From assembly GCA_022564455.1 (NCBI GenBank), contig JADFLK010000061.1:1-9167 (forward strand): a stretch of 9,167 nucleotides of DNA. The letters run 5' to 3'. The stretch is from Bacteroidota bacterium. GTDB taxonomy: Bacteria; Bacteroidota; Rhodothermia; Rhodothermales; Rubricoccaceae. Under the pieces are notes generated by a model. It had not been told where the DNA came from. It did not search any database and saw only the letters and a program-made list of their open reading frames with translations. The number at the start of each line of letters is the position of its first letter. Position 1 is the stretch's first letter. Made by a program: the position numbers and the translations under genes. Shown here in pieces: positions 1,515 to 9,167 of the stretch.

Positions 1515-3629
1515 ATGCGCCTGCTCATCCCCATCTGTCTGGTCTGTGTGCTTGTCGTCGCATTTGGATGCGGGGAAAGCGAGGAAGCTGATCTGCGCCG
1601 AGGAAGCACCGCCACGTTTGTAGGTGACGAGGCGTGTGCCAACTGCCACGCCGATATCTATACGAGCTACCACGAAACGGGGATGGCCCGATCCGTCTCA
1701 CGCTTCGATGCCGGCACGGCTCCGGAACAGTTCAACGCGGACGGACGGAGCCCGGAGGTGTGCCACGACGCGAGCGGTTACTGCTACGTGGCCTTCGTCC
1801 GGGGCGACACACTATTCCAGCGCGAGTTTCGGAGGGATGATCCAGAGCACGAGCGTACGTATGCCGCAAGCCACGTCATAGGATCGGGCAATGCCACACG
1901 GTCGTACTTCATGGTGGCCACGGTGCAGGATGATTCGCCCGACGTTGGCTATTACACCGAGATGCCGCTGACGTGGTATGTAGAGCGCGAGCTATGGGAT
2001 TTGAGCCCGGGATACGAGCAGACGAATGACCGTTTCGAACGGCCGATTGTTTCACACTGCATGACGTGCCACAACGGGCTGCCCAAGTTCGAGGCCGGCC
2101 CGCAAAACTTCTACACCGAGGGGCCGCTGGGCATCACGTGCGAACGATGCCACGGTCCTGCATCCGATCACGTGGAAATGCAACTCGCGGGAGGTGGCGT
2201 CGAGGGCGAACCCGATCCTACGATCGTGAACCCGGCCAGACTAGATGCTGGGCGACAACTTGCCGTGTGCCAGCAATGCCACCTTTCCGGAGAGACCGTT
2301 TTCAAGCCGGGCGAAGATCCCACGACGTTTCGCCCCGGCATGGCGCTGTCCGACAACCGGGCCGTGTTTGCACGTCAGGAACAGGTGGATGACCCCGAAG
2401 CCTTCGGAATCTCTTCCCACGCTCTGAGGATGATGCAGAGTGTGTGTTTTACGGCCACACGGGGGTTGGAAGACGCCCTCACCTGCACCACCTGCCATGA
2501 CCCGCATCGCTCAACGGCTTCGATGGAAGCGGATCATTTCAATACGACGTGCCGGTCGTGCCACGGCTCGGAGGCCCACCCCACAGTACTGCGGGGCGCT
2601 CGACCCGACGTTGCGTCGGTTGAAGAAGCCATGGTCGGCAATTGTGTGAGTTGCCACATGCAGCGCGGCGGTACAAGCGATATCCCACACGTTCTGTTCA
2701 CCGACCATTGGATCCGCCGCACCCTCCCGCCGCCGCGTCCTCCGGAAGACATCGAACGAGGCGGCGTTCGTTCGATCCCGTTCACGTTGATTGATGTTAC
2801 AGCGCGTGAACGCGCTCTTGCGGGCGAGGAAGAGCGTGTTGACGAGGCCGACTCCGCCGTTGAACTAGGCATCGCGTACTTCCATTTTTATGATTCGGAG
2901 CACCGGCTTCCGGCGTATTTACCCACGGTTGCCCAGCACATTCGCCGCGGCCTCGCCGCGGGCAGCGAACGGTCGGATGCACGGATGTACCTCGGCCGTG
3001 CGCTGATGGCAATGGATTCGCTGTCGGCTGCGGAGAGCCAACTGACTCTTGCCGCACAAGCTCATACGGGCGACCCGGAGACGCTCTACTGGCTTGGCGC
3101 CGTTCGTCTTCTCCGAGGGAACGCTGTGGCCGCCATTGAGGCGCTGGAGGAAGCCGTTGCCGTTCAGCCAGGGTTTTCGGAAGCTCGTTTTAAGCTCGCA
3201 GAGGCGCTTGCGGATGCGGGGCGTGTGGACGAGGCGCTCGCCTCTTACACGCAGGCCCTCCGCATGGACCCCTACCGCCACGCCTCTGCGTGGAATAACA
3301 TGGGCTTCCTGTACCTTCAGGCCGGCAACATGGACGACGCTGCACAGGCTCTCCGGCAGGCGGTTGGGCTCGACCCCCGTTTCGTCGAAGCTCGAACAAA
3401 TCTCGGTGCTGCGCTAATCAACAGCGGAAACCTGGTATCGGCGACCAGCCAGTTCGAGGCCGCACTTCGGTACCAGCCCGACTATGCTGCTGCCATCGGC
3501 AACCTGGGGGTGATCTACATGCGGCAAAGTCGTCGTAGCGATGCTCGCAGGATGTTCGAGAGGTTGCTGGCGCTCAATCCGGGAGATCAGAATGCGCTTG
3601 CATATCTCAATCAACTGAACGACAACTAG
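1515..3629 (+). CDS. Exported heptaheme c-type cytochrome with C-terminal TPR repeats
   Basis: This is a 704-residue protein probably involved in electron transfer outside the inner membrane. The start MRLLIPICLVCVLVV followed by AFGC (Cys19) looks like a lipoprotein signal with a non-ideal lipobox (Phe at -2). Seven CxxCH heme c sites are visible: residues 41-45, 182-186, 209-213, 252-256, 324-328, 346-350 and 377-381. The spacing, the ETGMARS segment after the first heme and the CTTCHDPH site resemble the cytochrome c554/DmsE-like multiheme proteins that carry a TPR tail in several environmental phyla. Residues about 445-700 form TPR-like helical repeats; NNMGFLYLQAGNMDDAAQAL and NLGVIYMRQSRRSDA are clear units. 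TPRs usually bind partner proteins. The ATG has no Shine-Dalgarno sequence. A weak promoter-like pair, CTGATT (1429) and TATTTT (1452) spaced by 17, lies upstream. The P460-like cytochrome gene starts 8 nt after the stop. The substrate is unknown. Confidence 0.9.
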   Translation: MRLLIPICLVCVLVVAFGCGESEEADLRRGSTATFVGDEACANCHADIYTSYHETGMARSVSRFDAGTAPEQFNADGRSPEVCHDASGYCYVAFVRGDTLFQREFRRDDPEHERTYAASHVIGSGNATRSYFMVATVQDDSPDVGYYTEMPLTWYVERELWDLSPGYEQTNDRFERPIVSHCMTCHNGLPKFEAGPQNFYTEGPLGITCERCHGPASDHVEMQLAGGGVEGEPDPTIVNPARLDAGRQLAVCQQCHLSGETVFKPGEDPTTFRPGMALSDNRAVFARQEQVDDPEAFGISSHALRMMQSVCFTATRGLEDALTCTTCHDPHRSTASMEADHFNTTCRSCHGSEAHPTVLRGARPDVASVEEAMVGNCVSCHMQRGGTSDIPHVLFTDHWIRRTLPPPRPPEDIERGGVRSIPFTLIDVTARERALAGEEERVDEADSAVELGIAYFHFYDSEHRLPAYLPTVAQHIRRGLAAGSERSDARMYLGRALMAMDSLSAAESQLTLAAQAHTGDPETLYWLGAVRLLRGNAVAAIEALEEAVAVQPGFSEARFKLAEALADAGRVDEALASYTQALRMDPYRHASAWNNMGFLYLQAGNMDDAAQALRQAVGLDPRFVEARTNLGAALINSGNLVSATSQFEAALRYQPDYAAAIGNLGVIYMRQSRRSDARRMFERLLALNPGDQNALAYLNQLNDN

Positions 3630-3637
3630 GTGACCAC

Positions 3638-4684
3638 GTGTTGAAGCAACATTTGCTAAAAGACGGCGAGTGGCGAGCGGCGGATGGCGGCGCATACAAC
3701 TCAGCGATCTGCGGTCTGCGGTCCTTTCTCTTCATTGTCGTAGCGTTCGGAATCATGCAACCTCTCACTGGTTGCGGAAGCGGCCCCATAGACGTAGCCA
3801 CGGCCGGCCGCGTGCCCGTGGATCTTGACAAGAGCAACGAGGAACGGTTGCTCAGGTATTATCTCGGCGGTTATGTCTCTCCTGAGGGAGGCGACCCCGT
3901 AGAGGCCGGGCTCATGATCGTGGATGGCGGGCTGGCCTTGAACCCCCAGCAACTCGATCCTGTCTTTCGCGCCGCATTGACGGATGCCGACGGCGACGGC
4001 ACGATTGGGTGGGATGAGTTTGTCGAGTTCGTTGAGGCCACCTATGCGGATGCCCGGTTGTTTCCACCTACCCTGGCGGAGCTCAGGTCTGATGTGCAGT
4101 GGAGCAATGACGACTCGGTGTGGTTTACCGTAGACGTAGACGGTGTAGTTACCGAGGCCCGCCGGAGGATCTACGTACCTCTCGAGACGATTCGCACAGC
4201 GCTGGCCGGTTATTCGGATGCGGGCGAGCAGATTGTTTATGCACCCGGCACCGTGATTATTGCCGAGCACCTGGATGATGAACGGGTTCTGGAAACCACT
4301 ATCAAACGCCGCAGAAACGATGGTTTTTGGGATTTTGCTATCTACAACGCAAACGGCCGGCGGGCGTCGCACACATCCACCGGTCCACGCGAGTTGCGGG
4401 CGCCGGTTCAGTGCGTGGGCTGCCATCTGGGCCATCGCGCCTTCGATCCCGAGAAAAGCTTCCCCGCTGAGGCGCCGGATGGACCCTACGGCCCGCGAGC
4501 GCTCTACGTGAGCGACGAGCTTCGCAACGCCGAGGTCACCGCGTATTTCGACGAGCACGCAAAGCGCAGTGACGGCGTGTTGGGTCTCTACGCTACGCTC
4601 TACACCGCCCAACTCGTGGCGGATCGGAGGGCCGGCTCTCTTTCGGAGGAAGATCGTACACTGCTTGAGAGCTTGGGGTTGTAA
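3638..4684 (+). CDS. Lipoprotein with EF-hand loop and P460-like single-heme cytochrome domain
   Basis: This 348-residue protein (from the GTG at 3638) has a lipobox LTGC with acceptor Cys46, preceded by a hydrophobic helix (residues about 29-43). A canonical 12-residue EF-hand loop lies at 116-127 (DADGDGTIGWDE), so it may bind calcium. Residues about 195-275 contain GTVIIAEH, a WDFAIYNANG strand and a single CVGCH heme c site at 259-263, followed by FDPEKSFP. This order resembles cytochrome P460-type domains, in which the only CxxCH is close to the C-terminus; the assignment is by pattern and is tentative. The start is unclear. AGGTGA at 3628-3633 lies 4 nt before GTG 3638 but 7 nt before TTG 3641, so TTG may be used. 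Either start gives an unusually long n-region of 27-28 residues, encoded partly by 7-base repeats. The gene follows the heptaheme gene by 8 nt, implying an operon and a shared electron-transfer role. Confidence 0.82.
   Translation: MLKQHLLKDGEWRAADGGAYNSAICGLRSFLFIVVAFGIMQPLTGCGSGPIDVATAGRVPVDLDKSNEERLLRYYLGGYVSPEGGDPVEAGLMIVDGGLALNPQQLDPVFRAALTDADGDGTIGWDEFVEFVEATYADARLFPPTLAELRSDVQWSNDDSVWFTVDVDGVVTEARRRIYVPLETIRTALAGYSDAGEQIVYAPGTVIIAEHLDDERVLETTIKRRRNDGFWDFAIYNANGRRASHTSTGPRELRAPVQCVGCHLGHRAFDPEKSFPAEAPDGPYGPRALYVSDELRNAEVTAYFDEHAKRSDGVLGLYATLYTAQLVADRRAGSLSEEDRTLLESLGL
3665..3722 (+). repeat. Degenerate 7-base tandem repeats (GGCGAGT type and CTGCGGT type)
   Basis: Four consecutive 7-base units begin with GGCG: GGCGAGT, GGCGAGC, GGCGGAT and GGCGGCG (3665-3692). 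After about 16 bases come CTGCGGT and CTGCGGT in tandem (3709-3722), preceded by the related AGCGAT. The stretch lies between the heptaheme gene's stop and the hydrophobic core of the next gene's signal peptide. It is read there as residues 10-28, a low-complexity sequence unlike a normal n-region. It resembles short degenerate heptamer repeats of intergenic type. Confidence 0.55.
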
Positions 4685-4788: not shown

Positions 4789-5160
4789 ATGCTCGCCACC
4801 GTACGCCTCGTCAATGCCGTTTTCTATGCCCACCACGGCGTGATGCAAGAGGAGCACCGCATAGGCGGGCGCTTTGAGGTGGACGTAGCGATGGACCTCG
4901 ACGTGGACGCCGCAGCAATGGAGGACGACCTCTCCAAAACCGTCGACTACGAGCGTGTGTATGCGTTCATCAAAGAGGTGATGCTGGCCAACACGTTCTA
5001 TTTGATCGAGAAAATCGCTTACACCATCGCCCACGAGGTGCTCGATCATTACACGAAAGTCGTGGCTGTGGAAGTGACGGTTCGCAAACCCAATCCGCCC
5101 GTCGGCGGGCCGTGCGACCGAGCCGACGTGACCTACAGGCTGTCTCGGGATTCAACGTGA
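4789..5160 (+). CDS. folB: Dihydroneopterin aldolase
   Basis: FolB converts 7,8-dihydroneopterin to 6-hydroxymethyl-7,8-dihydropterin plus glycolaldehyde in cytoplasmic folate synthesis. The 123-residue length is normal for the family. Family features are visible in order: the N-terminal strand and AHHGVMQEE segment (residues 14-22, containing the active-site Glu), GGRFEVDV (27-33), DDLSKTVDYERV (46-57), NTFYLIEKIA (68-77) and VTVRKPNPPVGG (96-107) with the conserved Lys100. The ATG at 4789 gives a natural family start. No Shine-Dalgarno sequence is visible, and the AGGTT repeat element ends 8 nt upstream. The stop TGA (5158-5160) overlaps the GTG start of folK in a GTGA junction, which indicates translational coupling with the next pathway step. 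A separate promoter is not obvious; expression may start within the gap or read through from the cytochrome genes. Confidence 0.93.
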   Translation: MLATVRLVNAVFYAHHGVMQEEHRIGGRFEVDVAMDLDVDAAAMEDDLSKTVDYERVYAFIKEVMLANTFYLIEKIAYTIAHEVLDHYTKVVAVEVTVRKPNPPVGGPCDRADVTYRLSRDST

Positions 5161-5708
5161 ACAACGGCAAGAAGTCCGTCGCTGCGTTTGTGGGGATGGG
5201 GAGCAATCTCGGAAACCGGCTCAGCATGCTCCGGTTCGCCGTTGCCGCGTTGGATGTGGCGGAAGGAGTCGCGGTTGAAAAGGTATCGCCTGTCTACGAA
5301 ACCGAAGCCCACGTCTTGCCGGATCAGGATCCCCAGCCGGATCATCTGAATGCAGTTATTTGGATGAGCACGACACGAACCACCGAGGACCTTCTCGGCC
5401 TGCTTCAACACATCGAACGAGAAGCAGGGCGCAATGCATCCGCACCGCAATGGAGCCCGCGGCCGCTCGATCTGGATCTGTTGCTCTTCGGTGCGGAGGC
5501 CTTCGAATCCGACAAACTCACGATCCCTCATCCAAGGCTGGCCGAACGCCGGTTTGTTTTGTTGCCGCTGGCAGATCTTGTCCACAATCTTGCCGTGCCT
5601 GGTGCAGATGGCACCACGGTTTCCGATCTTCTGGGACGTTGCCCGGATACCAGGCGCGTGAAGCGCTCCCGGCTGCGTTTGGTTGATGATCCTCAGCCGG
5701 ACCGATGA
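5157..5708 (+). CDS. folK: 2-amino-4-hydroxy-6-hydroxymethyldihydropteridine pyrophosphokinase
   Basis: FolK (HPPK) transfers pyrophosphate from ATP to 6-hydroxymethyl-7,8-dihydropterin, the product of FolB. I choose the GTG at 5157, which overlaps the folB stop by 4 nt (GTGA) and gives 183 residues; the longer frame from GTG 5112 adds 15 residues not expected in the family. Family motifs are in order: GMGSNLG (13-19), SPVYETEAH (44-52), HLNAVI (63-68), the signature WSPRPLDLDLLLFG (99-112) with Mg2+-binding Asp105 and Asp107, and IPHPRLAERRFVLLPL (123-138). The TGA stop overlaps the ATG of the deoxynucleoside kinase gene (ATGA). The C-terminal 25 residues are basic, then acidic, and not diagnostic. 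The protein is cytoplasmic, and all key motifs appear intact, so it should be active. Confidence 0.94.
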   Translation: MNNGKKSVAAFVGMGSNLGNRLSMLRFAVAALDVAEGVAVEKVSPVYETEAHVLPDQDPQPDHLNAVIWMSTTRTTEDLLGLLQHIEREAGRNASAPQWSPRPLDLDLLLFGAEAFESDKLTIPHPRLAERRFVLLPLADLVHNLAVPGADGTTVSDLLGRCPDTRRVKRSRLRLVDDPQPDR

Positions 5709-6376
5709 GTCAACTCCCTGAACATCTCCGCTACATCGCTGTCGAGGGCGTGATTGGCGTCGGGAAATCCTCGCTTGCGCGGATGCTTGCCGAGCGAACC
5801 GGTGCCCGGCTCGTGCTGGAGGACTTCGGCGAGAACCCGTTCCTCCCACACTTCTACGAAGACCCCGAACGTTGGGCGTTCCAAACACAGTTATCGTTCC
5901 TGGCCAGCCGCTTCCGGCAGCAGAAGGACTTTGCCTCGCGCGACCTCTTTCAGCAGGCCGTCATTGCAGATTATACCTTTGAGAAGGATCGTATCTTTGC
6001 CCACGTAACCCTTTCGGGGGATGAACTCCAGCTTTACGAGAGCTTGTTCAGCTTGATGGAAGCCAATGCGCCCGTGCCAGATTTAGTGGTGTACCTCCAG
6101 GCCTCGGTGGATCGGTTGATGCACAACATTTCACTGCGTGGGCGTAGTTACGAAGCCAATATGGACCGGGCGTACATCACGGAACTGGCGGGGGCGTACG
6201 ATCAGTATTTCTTCCATTACGTGAAGAGTCCGCTGCTTATCATCAATGCCTCGCAACTCGATTTCGTTCGGCAGCCCGATCACTTCGAGGAACTGGTTCG
6301 CCAGATTGCACATCCGCCCTCGGCAACCGCACACTTCAACCCGCCGTCGTCGATGCAGTTGGACTTTGGGAGCTAG
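5705..6376 (+). CDS. Deoxynucleoside kinase (dAK/dGK/dCK family)
   Basis: This enzyme phosphorylates deoxynucleosides with ATP in nucleotide salvage; the base preference cannot be read from the sequence. The 223-residue protein has a P-loop GVIGVGKSS (15-23), an LEDFGENPF segment (38-46) holding the substrate-binding Glu, DYTFEKDRIFA (89-99) corresponding to the family DR(S) motif, a parallel-strand segment DLVVYLQAS (126-134), and the LID motif RGRSYE (145-150). The ATG overlaps the folK stop (ATGA), so the two are translationally coupled. An adjacent or fused folK and deoxynucleoside kinase is, to my knowledge, a recurring arrangement in Bacteroidota, which supports the taxonomic guess. The stop TAG (6374-6376) lies in one arm of a hairpin shared with the convergent tonB gene. 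All key motifs seem intact. Confidence 0.92.
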   Translation: MSQLPEHLRYIAVEGVIGVGKSSLARMLAERTGARLVLEDFGENPFLPHFYEDPERWAFQTQLSFLASRFRQQKDFASRDLFQQAVIADYTFEKDRIFAHVTLSGDELQLYESLFSLMEANAPVPDLVVYLQASVDRLMHNISLRGRSYEANMDRAYITELAGAYDQYFFHYVKSPLLIINASQLDFVRQPDHFEELVRQIAHPPSATAHFNPPSSMQLDFGS

Positions 6377-6394
6377 GAGTTCGACAGACTCCTA
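6374..6394. terminator. Bidirectional hairpin spanning two convergent stop codons
   Basis: TAGGAGT (6374-6380) and ACTCCTA (6388-6394) pair perfectly over 7 bp around a 7-nt loop. The first three bases are the TAG of the deoxynucleoside kinase, and the last three are the complement of the tonB TAG. Because it is symmetric, it forms in either transcript. No T tract follows on either strand, so it is at best a weak intrinsic terminator; it may only act as a 3'-end block. Confidence 0.4.
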
Positions 6395-7138
6395 AACGCC
6401 GAAGTTGCAAGTGATGGTTGTGTAGCTCTGTACGGCGCGGCCTTCGTGGCGCGCAGGGCGAAACTGGTACCTCCTTGCGGCCTCCAGCGCCGATTGATCG
6501 AGGCCATGCGGGAGGGAGGAGACGTGCTCTTCCCGGTCGCCCCGGCCTATGCGTATTCGTTCGAGGATCCGCATTTCCTGCACGCGTCCCCGTTCATCCA
6601 CCAGTACCTCGATACGCACTCGCGCGCGTATACCTTCCGCTCGGGCGGCCGGCGGATAGGCGGGCTCCGAAAACCGAACGGGCACCGGGCTGCGATCCGG
6701 CCTGCGGACCAGCGTGGGCTGTGGGGGAGGAGGAGGCTGCGCCGCAGGTTGCGGAGGCCCGGCGGGCCCGGGTGGAGGAGCCGGCGGGGCGTTCGGAATC
6801 GAGTTCAGACTTGGAAACGCCGCCTCCAGGTCCAGAACGCGTTCCTCAATAATACGTGTATCAGGTACTTCAACCGGCGGAAGGAGAACCTCTTGCGGCG
6901 GCGGGGGGGGTGCAGGCGGAACGGCGTAGTCCTGGATCGTTTGCTCAATTAGTTCGAGCTCGATGATCTCCTGAGGGCGTACTGCTGCAAAGAGGTCTGA
7001 GTTGTCGGCCTCCGGCGACGGCAGCGGCCAAAGCCGGAACATCCCCACCACCACGAGCAAGCTCATGGCCAGGCTGCTCAGGCCGCGCATTCGCAGGGCC
7101 CGGCGTCGATCGGCTGGCGGCGGATATGGACGGCTCAT
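6392..7138 (-). CDS. tonB: TonB family energy-transducing protein
   Basis: TonB proteins link the ExbB/ExbD proton-driven motor of the inner membrane to outer-membrane receptors. From the ATG at 7138 (248 residues) the order is typical: a basic N-terminus, one membrane segment (about 20-38), an extended Pro-rich periplasmic linker (about 73-153 with several runs of 4-5 Pro), and a C-terminal TonB domain (about 157-246) with SEPAYPPAARAEGIRARVRI, a VDERGRVQEMRI strand pair and the terminal ARRYQFRPARHEGRAV helix/strand. A longer frame begins at 7246, but its extra 36 residues are odd and put the anchor far from the N-terminus, so I prefer 7138. No exbB, exbD or receptor gene is in the window. 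It is convergent with the deoxynucleoside kinase and divergent from carA. A run of eight G (6903-6910) encodes part of the proline tract and could be prone to slippage. Confidence 0.88.
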   Translation of the reverse strand: MSRPYPPPADRRRALRMRGLSSLAMSLLVVVGMFRLWPLPSPEADNSDLFAAVRPQEIIELELIEQTIQDYAVPPAPPPPPQEVLLPPVEVPDTRIIEERVLDLEAAFPSLNSIPNAPPAPPPGPAGPPQPAAQPPPPPQPTLVRRPDRSPVPVRFSEPAYPPAARAEGIRARVRIEVLVDERGRVQEMRILERIRIGRGDREEHVSSLPHGLDQSALEAARRYQFRPARHEGRAVQSYTTITCNFGV

Positions 7139-7278
7139 AGGCAGAAAACGATGAAAACGGAACCTTCGCGCCCGGTAGTGAAAAAGAAGTAGTGTAAAAG
7201 GTGTGGTGCAAAAGAATACGCATTCGGTGTGCCCGAGGGCAGGCAAAGAGCGATCCCCGTGAAGACAACGGAGATGGC

Positions 7279-7307
7279 TTGACGGTTGCTTCGACTCTCT
7301 TTAAGTT
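7279..7307 (+). promoter_or_regulatory. Candidate sigma70-type promoter of carA
   Basis: TTGACG (7279-7284) matches five of six -35 consensus bases. TAAGTT (7302-7307) keeps the key first T, A and last T of a -10 box, and the spacer is exactly 17 nt. Transcription would start near 7314, where a leader hairpin begins, giving a 5' leader of about 165 nt before carA. The -10 box is weak, and Bacteroidota promoters often differ from this consensus, so this is a candidate only. Confidence 0.42.
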
Positions 7308-7313
7308 CTCATC

Positions 7314-7346
7314 CTGAAAACAAGCCGTACCTGCGGCTCATTTCAG
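7314..7346 (+). promoter_or_regulatory. 5' leader hairpin upstream of carA
   Basis: Outer stem CTGAAA (7314-7319) pairs with TTTCAG (7341-7346), and inner stem AGCCG (7323-7327) pairs with CGGCT (7334-7338). They are separated by a small internal loop (ACA / CA) and closed by a 6-nt loop. In total 11 perfect base pairs lie right at the expected transcript start. It could be a protein-binding or mRNA-stabilising element of the leader; it does not match the PyrR-binding motif that I know. Confidence 0.45.
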
Positions 7347-7363
7347 ACCAACGACCCTGCCCG

Positions 7364-7435
7364 ATGCGCGGCCTCGCCTCGCCCAACAGTGCGCTACCTC
7401 TTCGCGGTCCCGGCCATCGAGCCGTCCGCTTTTAG
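7364..7435 (+). CDS. Possible 23-residue leader peptide before the carA attenuator
   Basis: An ATG at 7364 opens 23 codons (starting MRGLASPNSALPLRG) and ends with TAG at 7433-7435. The last base of this stop is the first base of the terminator stem, and U-rich RNA follows. This is the geometry of translation-coupled attenuators such as E. coli pyrBI, where ribosomes following the polymerase closely prevent the terminator from folding. There is no Shine-Dalgarno sequence, and a frame this short can arise by chance, so this is an inference from position rather than a confident gene. Confidence 0.28.
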   Translation: MRGLASPNSALPLRGPGHRAVRF

Positions 7436-7468
7436 CCTTTTCCGTTTTTCGGGAAGGGCCTTTTTTTT
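7435..7468 (+). terminator. Intrinsic terminator (probable attenuator) just before carA
   Basis: GCCTTTTCCG (7435-7444) pairs with CGGGAAGGGC (7450-7459) over 10 bp, including two G-U pairs, with a T5 loop. It is followed directly by CC/T8 (T run 7461-7468). This is a standard intrinsic terminator reading in the plus direction. It ends 11 nt before the carA ATG with no other gene between the candidate promoter and carA, so it should control read-through into carA rather than end an upstream operon. Confidence 0.72.
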
Positions 7469-7479
7469 ATCCGTGCCCC

Positions 7480-8784
7480 ATGACTGATCGCACCATATCT
7501 GATCGCATAGCCAAGATCGCTTTGGAAGATGGAACCGTCGTCATCGGCCGCGCTGTTGGCCATGCCGGAGAGGCTGTGGGCGAGTTGTGCTTCAATACGT
7601 CGATGAGCGGTTACCAGGAGATTCTGACCGACCCGAGCTACGTCGGCCAGTTGATGATGATGACCTACCCGCACATCGGCAACTACGGGTGCTTTGAGGA
7701 AGCAACGGAGGCCGCCCGCCCGATGGTGAGTGGACTCGTCGTAAGGTCTTTCACGCACCGCCACTCGAACGCGGCAGCCGAGGAATCGCTGGATGCCTAC
7801 ATGAAGCGTCACGAACTGGTGGGCATCTCGGGCGTCGATACTCGGAAGCTGGTTCGCCACATTCGCTCAAAGGGGGTGATGAATGCAGTGGTCTCGTCGG
7901 TAGATATGGACGATGAGAGCCTCGTGGCCAAAGCCAGGGCAGCACCGAGCATGGCCGGCCTCGAACTGGCGAGCCGCGTCACTACCGAAGATGCCTACGA
8001 CTACCACCTTGGCGAAGGCCCACGCATCGCAGTGTACGATTTCGGCGTGAAGCGCAACATCCTCCGCTCGTTCGCCAACCGCGATTGTACGGTGCGGGTT
8101 TACCCGGCAAGCACGGCGCTCGAAGGCGTCCTCGCCTGGAATCCGGACGGCCTTTTCTTCTCGAATGGCCCCGGCGATCCGCGGGCGATGGCAGAGTCCG
8201 TAGAGATGGTCCGAGAGGCTACGAAGGCGGGCATCCCACTCTTCGGGATTTGCCTTGGCCACCAGTTGATGTCCCTCGCCGAGGGGCTGAAGGTGTACAA
8301 GATGAAAGTCGGCCACCGCGGTGCGAATCACCCGGTGCTCAATCTCGAAACCGGCCATGTCGAGATCACCGGTCATCCCGTGGCGAAACTCTGGATCAAC
8401 ACCAATGCCGAGGACGGCGATTTCTTCGTATATCTGGAGGAAGTCGATTCCGAAGGCTATTCACACTACATCACCGAAGGCTCGCTCCGCGTCACTCACC
8501 GATCCCTGAGCGAACCGGACTACGACTATCTGGGCCTGCCCTACCATCGAAGCTACAAAGCCGACATGACGCCACTGACGGGCAAGCCGATGCTGCTGGA
8601 GATCGATCTGCTCCCGACGTCAAATATCTTCGACAAGGGGAATCGCATCCGCGTGACCATCACCTGCGCCGATCGGGACAATCTGGAGACCCCGGTTGTC
8701 GATCCGCCCCCGATCGTGACCCTGGAATGCAATCCCGAGCTGGCGTCATCGATTGTCCTGCCGATCATCGAGCATCGGAAATAG
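7480..8784 (+). CDS. carA: Chimeric CDS: CarA N-terminal part joined in frame to a CocE/PepX-type C-terminal domain
   Basis: Residues 1-297 are the carbamoyl-phosphate synthase small subunit, which supplies ammonia from glutamine for pyrimidine and arginine synthesis. Visible are ALEDGTVVIGRA, FNTSMSGYQEILTDPSY, TYPHIGNYG, GISGVDTRKLVRHIRSKG, the amidotransferase FSNGPGDP (227-234), the nucleophile Cys258 in GICLGHQ, and GHRGANHP. At VEIT (294-297) the family normally continues with SQNHGFAV and ends with the catalytic YHPEA region. Here it continues GHPVAKLWINT, EDGDFFVYLEEVD, YITEGSLRV, LGLPYHRS and DLLPTSN, which is the late part of the X-Pro dipeptidyl-peptidase C-terminal beta-sandwich of CocE/NonD hydrolases, with a natural ending (VLPII). 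The catalytic His and Glu of the glutaminase are therefore missing, as is the hydrolase domain of CocE. At 434 residues it is longer than a usual CarA (about 360-380). No carB follows. It is probably inactive as a glutaminase, or an assembly artefact. Confidence 0.85.
   Translation: MTDRTISDRIAKIALEDGTVVIGRAVGHAGEAVGELCFNTSMSGYQEILTDPSYVGQLMMMTYPHIGNYGCFEEATEAARPMVSGLVVRSFTHRHSNAAAEESLDAYMKRHELVGISGVDTRKLVRHIRSKGVMNAVVSSVDMDDESLVAKARAAPSMAGLELASRVTTEDAYDYHLGEGPRIAVYDFGVKRNILRSFANRDCTVRVYPASTALEGVLAWNPDGLFFSNGPGDPRAMAESVEMVREATKAGIPLFGICLGHQLMSLAEGLKVYKMKVGHRGANHPVLNLETGHVEITGHPVAKLWINTNAEDGDFFVYLEEVDSEGYSHYITEGSLRVTHRSLSEPDYDYLGLPYHRSYKADMTPLTGKPMLLEIDLLPTSNIFDKGNRIRVTITCADRDNLETPVVDPPPIVTLECNPELASSIVLPIIEHRK
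8359..8371 (+). other. Junction of carA and CocE-type sequence at a shared VEIT coding stretch
   Basis: The twelve bases GTCGAGATCACC encode VEIT, a peptide that both families carry at this point: CarA as VEITSQNH and CocE-type proteins as VEITGHP. To the left the sequence is only CarA-like, and to the right only CocE-like, with no shift of frame. The breakpoint therefore lies in or directly beside this short identical or near-identical stretch. The left-hand side carries a carA leader, while the right-hand side carries a CocE 3' end packed against an M16 gene, as if two loci had been joined. Confidence 0.75.
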
Positions 8785-8791
8785 TCGACCG

Positions 8792-9167
8792 TCAACCACT
8801 TGCGACCTGTTCGGGGATCGCAAGCGCCACCGGGCCGAGGGTGGCGAGGGTGAATTGATCAATTTCCCGCCCGCTGACGTATTCGTTTAGCTGATCGTGG
8901 CTGATGGCATCAATCTGCGAGGCGATGTCATCCAGCGATCTTGCCCGCCCGAGTCGAAAATGATCCTGAGCCACCGCCGCGGCCCGGGCCGGGGTTGATT
9001 CACCCTGCATGATCAGGCTGCTCTTGAGGGAAGTGACAGTACGATTGAATTCATCTTCGCTGACCCCCTCTCGCAGACGATGAATTTCCCTCACGCTCAC
9101 ATCGAGGGTTTCCTGGGCGCGCTCCGGGGTGGTTCCCGCATTCAGCGTCACCATTCCATAATCACGC
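8792..9167 (-). CDS. M16 family zinc metallopeptidase, partial (C-terminal part only)
   Basis: About 124 residues are visible, and the frame is open to the right edge (RDYG before MVTLNAG), so the N-terminal catalytic part with the HxxEH zinc site lies outside. The visible segments are typical of the C-terminal, often inactive, repeat of M16 (pitrilysin/insulinase/processing peptidase) proteins: the GTTPERAQETLDVSVREIHRL helix, GVSEDEFNRTVTSLKSSL, an ESTPARAAAVAQDHFRLGR helix, the DDIASQIDAISHDQLNEYVS helix pair, and a closing QFTLATLGP strand. In Gram-negative bacteria such proteins are usually periplasmic or lipoprotein peptidases, often encoded as pairs. Its TGA stop (8792-8794) is 7 nt from the stop of the convergent chimeric gene, with no terminator between them. 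Confidence 0.85.
   Translation of the reverse strand, partial: RDYGMVTLNAGTTPERAQETLDVSVREIHRLREGVSEDEFNRTVTSLKSSLIMQGESTPARAAAVAQDHFRLGRARSLDDIASQIDAISHDQLNEYVSGREIDQFTLATLGPVALAIPEQVASG

Follow-up and report, generated by a model that had tools for sequence, protein, structure and literature searches.

The window, i.e. the entire stretch of 9,167 nucleotides that was analysed, carries near its 3' end an open frame in which the beginning of a carA gene is continued by the end of a cocE gene, and the end of an M16 peptidase gene lies convergent with the cocE part (Table 1). At 6379-6380, between the deoxynucleoside-kinase gene and a TonB_C gene, the window is without 144 bases that are present in the related genome G001 (locus L002, 260-403).

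Table 1. Features of the window, with positions counted from its first base
Feature	Position	Strand	Basis
Multihaem cytochrome c with TPR tail	1515-3629		
Frame adjoining the cytochrome frame	3638-4684		EF-hand match, weak and short of the cut-off; CxxCH motif identified by eye
folB, folK and deoxynucleoside-kinase gene, close or overlapping	4789-6376	+	
Fused carA-cocE frame	7480-8784	+	Open, 434 aa
5' part of Rhodothermales-type carA (residues 1-293)	7480-8358	+	NCBIfam/Pfam; P0122; G001 DNA identity
Junction word GTCGAGATCACC = VEIT (residues 294-297)	8359-8370	+	Reads VEIT in both families
3' part of cocE (PepX_C end), foreign to the left side	8371-8784	+	Intact CocE matches P0002, P0003
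3' part of M16 (pitrilysin-type) peptidase gene	8792-9167	-	Pfam Peptidase_M16_C; exits the window end

Domain content and junction word of the fused frame

On the CarA side of the fused protein, the CPSase_sm_chain domain (PF00988) occupies residues 14-138 and is complete (profile positions 2-126 of 126), the GATase domain covers residues 185-295 with profile positions 2-117 of 190, its C-terminal portion being missing, and the NCBIfam model CPSaseIIsmall (TIGR01368) spans residues 12-298 (positions 2-293 of 361). On the CocE side, PepX_C (PF08530) is represented at residues 294-400 by positions 91-182 of 217 only, and CocE_NonD (TIGR00976) at residues 293-401 by positions 421-508 of 550. Both NCBIfam matches exceed the cut-off, and the E-values of the CarA and CocE domain matches are far from chance. 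Pfam and NCBIfam thus agree with the initial annotation, which had assigned residues 1-297 to CarA and the last 137 residues to the late part of the CocE/NonD PepX_C domain. Its description of the catalytic parts, with the His region of CarA lost, Cys258 retained and no hydrolase domain on the CocE side, likewise holds. The nucleophile Cys is kept as residue 258, and the HPEA motif, which alignment to E. coli CarA identifies as the site of the catalytic His and whose Glu we take to be catalytic as well, is absent from the fused frame. In the intact CarA protein P0122 this motif starts at residue 343, past the join, so that the catalytic-His stretch is lost. No Pfam match to the alpha/beta-hydrolase domain PF02129 was found in the fused protein; this domain is present in most of the 120 listed of the 790 homologues of the CocE tail.

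The change from one family to the other had been placed at VEIT, a peptide thought to occur in both, and relatives of each side indeed show the same word: the CarA relatives L001 and L065 have GTCGAGATCACG at the junction position, and the CocE relatives P0002-P0004 read VEITGHP. Some 11 bases (8359-8369), GTCGAGATCAC, are common to the CarA and CocE sides. The 12th base of the word is C, which fits the CocE side, whereas it is G in the CarA relatives L001, L005 and L065. Because both genes read the word in the same frame, as V-E-I-T, the frame is open across the join without any need of selection.

Affiliation of the two sides

The best-ranked relatives of the window among genome contigs belong to Rubricoccaceae, Rhodothermaceae, Rhodothermales or unspecified Bacteroidetes (best 80 of 165 confirmed loci). 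DNA similarity to locus L005 extends over positions 239-1396 and 4789-8369 (72-74%), and that to genome G001 over 6121-7650 (88-89%) and 7635-8369 (89.5%). Eleven loci were inspected, and in all eight of those that match inside carA (L001, L005, L006, L007, L008, L009, L012 and L065, of which L001 and L006 are the same gene counted twice) the similarity stops at 8336-8370. The matches end at position 8369 (L001, L005, L006, L065), 8370 (L012), 8367 (L009), 8364 (L007) and 8336 (L008), and none of the loci compared gave a DNA match past 8420. Beyond this point the carA gene of G001 continues as GTCGAGATCACGACCCAGAAC and then has a normal CarA end, with a carB-like start read by eye 3' of it, and L005 encodes an intact CarA of 370 residues followed by carB. 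The assembly of G001, the nearest of the genomes compared, also breaks within carA, at L102 (end of contig C154, base 12185) and L103 (start of contig C41); C154 ends at the base that matches window position 7650 and C41 starts at the one that matches 7635, an overlap of 16 bases.

The same continuity is seen in a broader set of CarA loci. When the comparison was confined to the 81 loci whose match reaches residue 280, those with a best match stopping earlier being dropped, 80 kept their frame as far as YHPE or HPEA; the remaining one, L064, leaves its contig 108 bases later. The best CarA match in the protein database, P0122 (20 member sequences, longest contig 1,463 bases), is identical to the fused protein at 293 of residues 1-297 and is intact, with 375 aa, the HPEA motif and a normal C-terminus. 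A real fusion would be a strain-level event. No carB was found near the fused frame; the 383 bases 3' of the frame contain the end of the M16 gene.

The CocE tail has 790 homologues in the protein database at E-values up to 0.001, the best of which are the intact CocE proteins P0002 (611 aa) and P0003 (607 aa), with 81-82% identity to the tail. No intact cocE from the donor strain itself turned up, these two being the best relatives. The best named match is P0005 from a Planctomycetota bacterium (68%), and the eight organism names among the listed homologues comprise two Planctomycetota, three Candidatus Aminicenantes, one Acidobacteriota and two Anaerolineae/Anaerolineales; the named matches span several phyla, so that the phylum of the source cannot be read from the CocE tail by itself. 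The tail alone matched none of the 114 genomes of the order of G001 in a search that had no positive control, and searches with full-length CocE proteins were relied on instead. The full P0005 protein matched 38 of the 114 genomes, with identities of at most 39% in the stronger rows and 45% in one piece of 54 residues, and P0002 matched 156 of 395 Bacteroidota genomes at 23-45% identity among the matches listed. Matches of the tail to 22 plasmid records were all below 60% identity (best listed 41.9%), and a DNA comparison of the window with plasmids in 'near' mode gave no match.

The foreign side extends into the next gene, which was absent from the initial annotation. The M16 end is 95% identical to the intact protein P0242 over the whole piece, and all 13 organism names among the best 120 of its 159 matches are Planctomycetota, Planctomycetes, Phycisphaerales or Phycisphaeraceae; its matches in 40 of the 114 genomes of the order of G001 reach 21-33% identity. 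Relatives of CocE and of the M16 end in the Bacteroidota genomes sampled are thus no more than distant ones. The nearest relatives of the two sides therefore lie in different phyla, Rhodothermales-type on the left and, by the M16 end, planctomycete-type on the right. The CocE and M16 match lists have contigs of 14,127, 15,322 and 25,851 bases in common. Counted among 45 and 42 contig sizes of at least 10 kb, these three coincidences compare with a mean of 0.037 and a maximum of one in 2,000 jittered lists, and P0005 and P0247, whose contig is the one of 15,322 bases, agree in sources and organism name as well. Judging by the shared contig sizes, the two genes are probably neighbours in a planctomycete-type group, and the M16 end and the cocE part would have a common foreign source.

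Origin of the join

Very probably, the window combines the DNA of two organisms at an artificial join, and the fused frame is no new enzyme. Bases 1 to about 8369 would come from a Rhodothermales-type bacterium (Bacteroidota) and end within its carA, and bases from about 8359 to 9167 from a planctomycete-type bacterium, beginning within cocE and passing into the convergent M16 gene. The two DNAs would have been joined at the approximately 11 shared bases, with both genes cut, either by the assembler or via a chimeric DNA molecule during library amplification. Usual k-mer assemblers need overlaps longer than about 11 bases; a plain graph error is therefore no easy explanation, and a chimeric molecule or read is the more likely route. 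The comparisons show the differing affiliations, the place of the break and the existence of intact relatives of the cut genes; that the joining took place after sampling, outside any cell, is our inference. The possibility of an artefactual join at a short shared word, raised in the initial annotation, is thus supported by the intact CarA with 293 of 297 identical residues, by the differing phyla, and by a similarity that stops at or just before the word. For each of the cut genes an intact separate version exists, namely P0122 for CarA, P0242 for M16, and, though at 81-82% identity only, P0002 and P0003 for CocE.

The tetranucleotide distance of the right piece is 0.46, as compared with a maximum of 0.436 among 76 overlapping left pieces, which speaks weakly for two sources. 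In synonymous codon use the two sides do not differ, since 113 of 118 left pieces fit worse than the right one, and codon usage lends no support to two sources. The latter agreement is in favor of a genuine illegitimate recombination, very recent and confined to one strain, by which planctomycete-type DNA would have entered carA and left a functionless fused frame; so are the open frame, the lack of any scar in the sequence and the position of the join at a short shared word. However, the sole near-identical CarA, P0122, is intact, as are the CarA relatives wherever they are readable (80 of 81), and no mobile-element gene is found among the annotated genes of the foreign segment, whose cocE and M16 parts resemble an undisturbed neighborhood of another phylum. 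Such an event would also have disrupted CarA, whose enzyme depends on it as glutaminase subunit and feeds the synthesis of arginine as well as of pyrimidines (PMC6245113). We regard this course of events as improbable.

A strain-level recombination at the 11-base word that, in addition, produced an expressed non-glutaminase CarA, working with free ammonia only or as a scaffold, is more improbable still. The initial annotation had offered a real non-glutaminase or scaffold form as its second explanation and had proposed a search for other proteins that combine CPSase_sm_chain with PepX_C. PF00988 was absent from the best 120 of the 790 CocE-tail homologues, and PepX_C was absent from the best 120 of the 7,999 CarA homologues scored; with both domains cut as well, this explanation gains no support. 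A literature search for CarA/PepX/CocE fusions gave no paper that contained three of its four terms. A new CarA architecture was likewise rejected, there being no two-domain protein among the listed matches and both domains being cut mid-fold. A working CarA variant devoid of glutaminase, which uses free ammonia or serves as a scaffold for CarB, is an extremely improbable reading of the fused frame: the complete CPSase_sm_chain makes contact with CarB conceivable, and carbamoyl phosphate formation from ammonia is an activity of the E. coli CarB subunit (PMC6245113), but neither domain is whole, GATase stopping at 117 of 190 and PepX_C starting at 91 of 217, no listed match of either search has both domains, and the bases 3' of the frame hold the M16 end and no carB.

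With the artificial chimera as the preferred reading, the fused frame should not be given a function, and the CarA-CocE fusion should stay out of domain-architecture databases. The case illustrates how two genes that are joined at a short word may yield an open frame resembling a new enzyme, and how intact near-identical genes together with the affiliation of the next gene expose it.

Comparison with known systems

Residues 1-297 share with CarA (TIGR01368; E. coli CarA, PDB 1bxr chain B) the CPSase_sm_chain domain and the nucleophile Cys. In contrast to CarA, whose catalytic residues are given in PMC6245113 as Cys-269 and His-353 in E. coli numbering, the fused frame is without the last part of GATase and HPEA, and it is followed by the M16 gene and not by carB. 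The N-terminal domain of the family is thus present, whereas a complete class-I GATase with both Cys and His is absent, as is, from the 383 bases that follow, a carB close downstream of the kind seen in L005 and G001. With 81-82% identity to the C-terminal ends of P0002 and P0003, residues 298-434 resemble the CocE/NonD family (TIGR00976, PF08530), from which the fused frame differs by a partial PepX_C (91-182 of 217) and by the absence of PF02129, the hydrolase domain of that family.

The closest parallel to the join itself, which would apply to an amplified sample, is provided by the chimeras formed in multiple displacement amplification, for which PMC1855051 describes short complementary words of 2-21 nucleotides at more than 70% of junctions. 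Of the chimeras in that source, 85% are inversions within one genome; what the two cases have in common is that the joining took place where a short word is shared.
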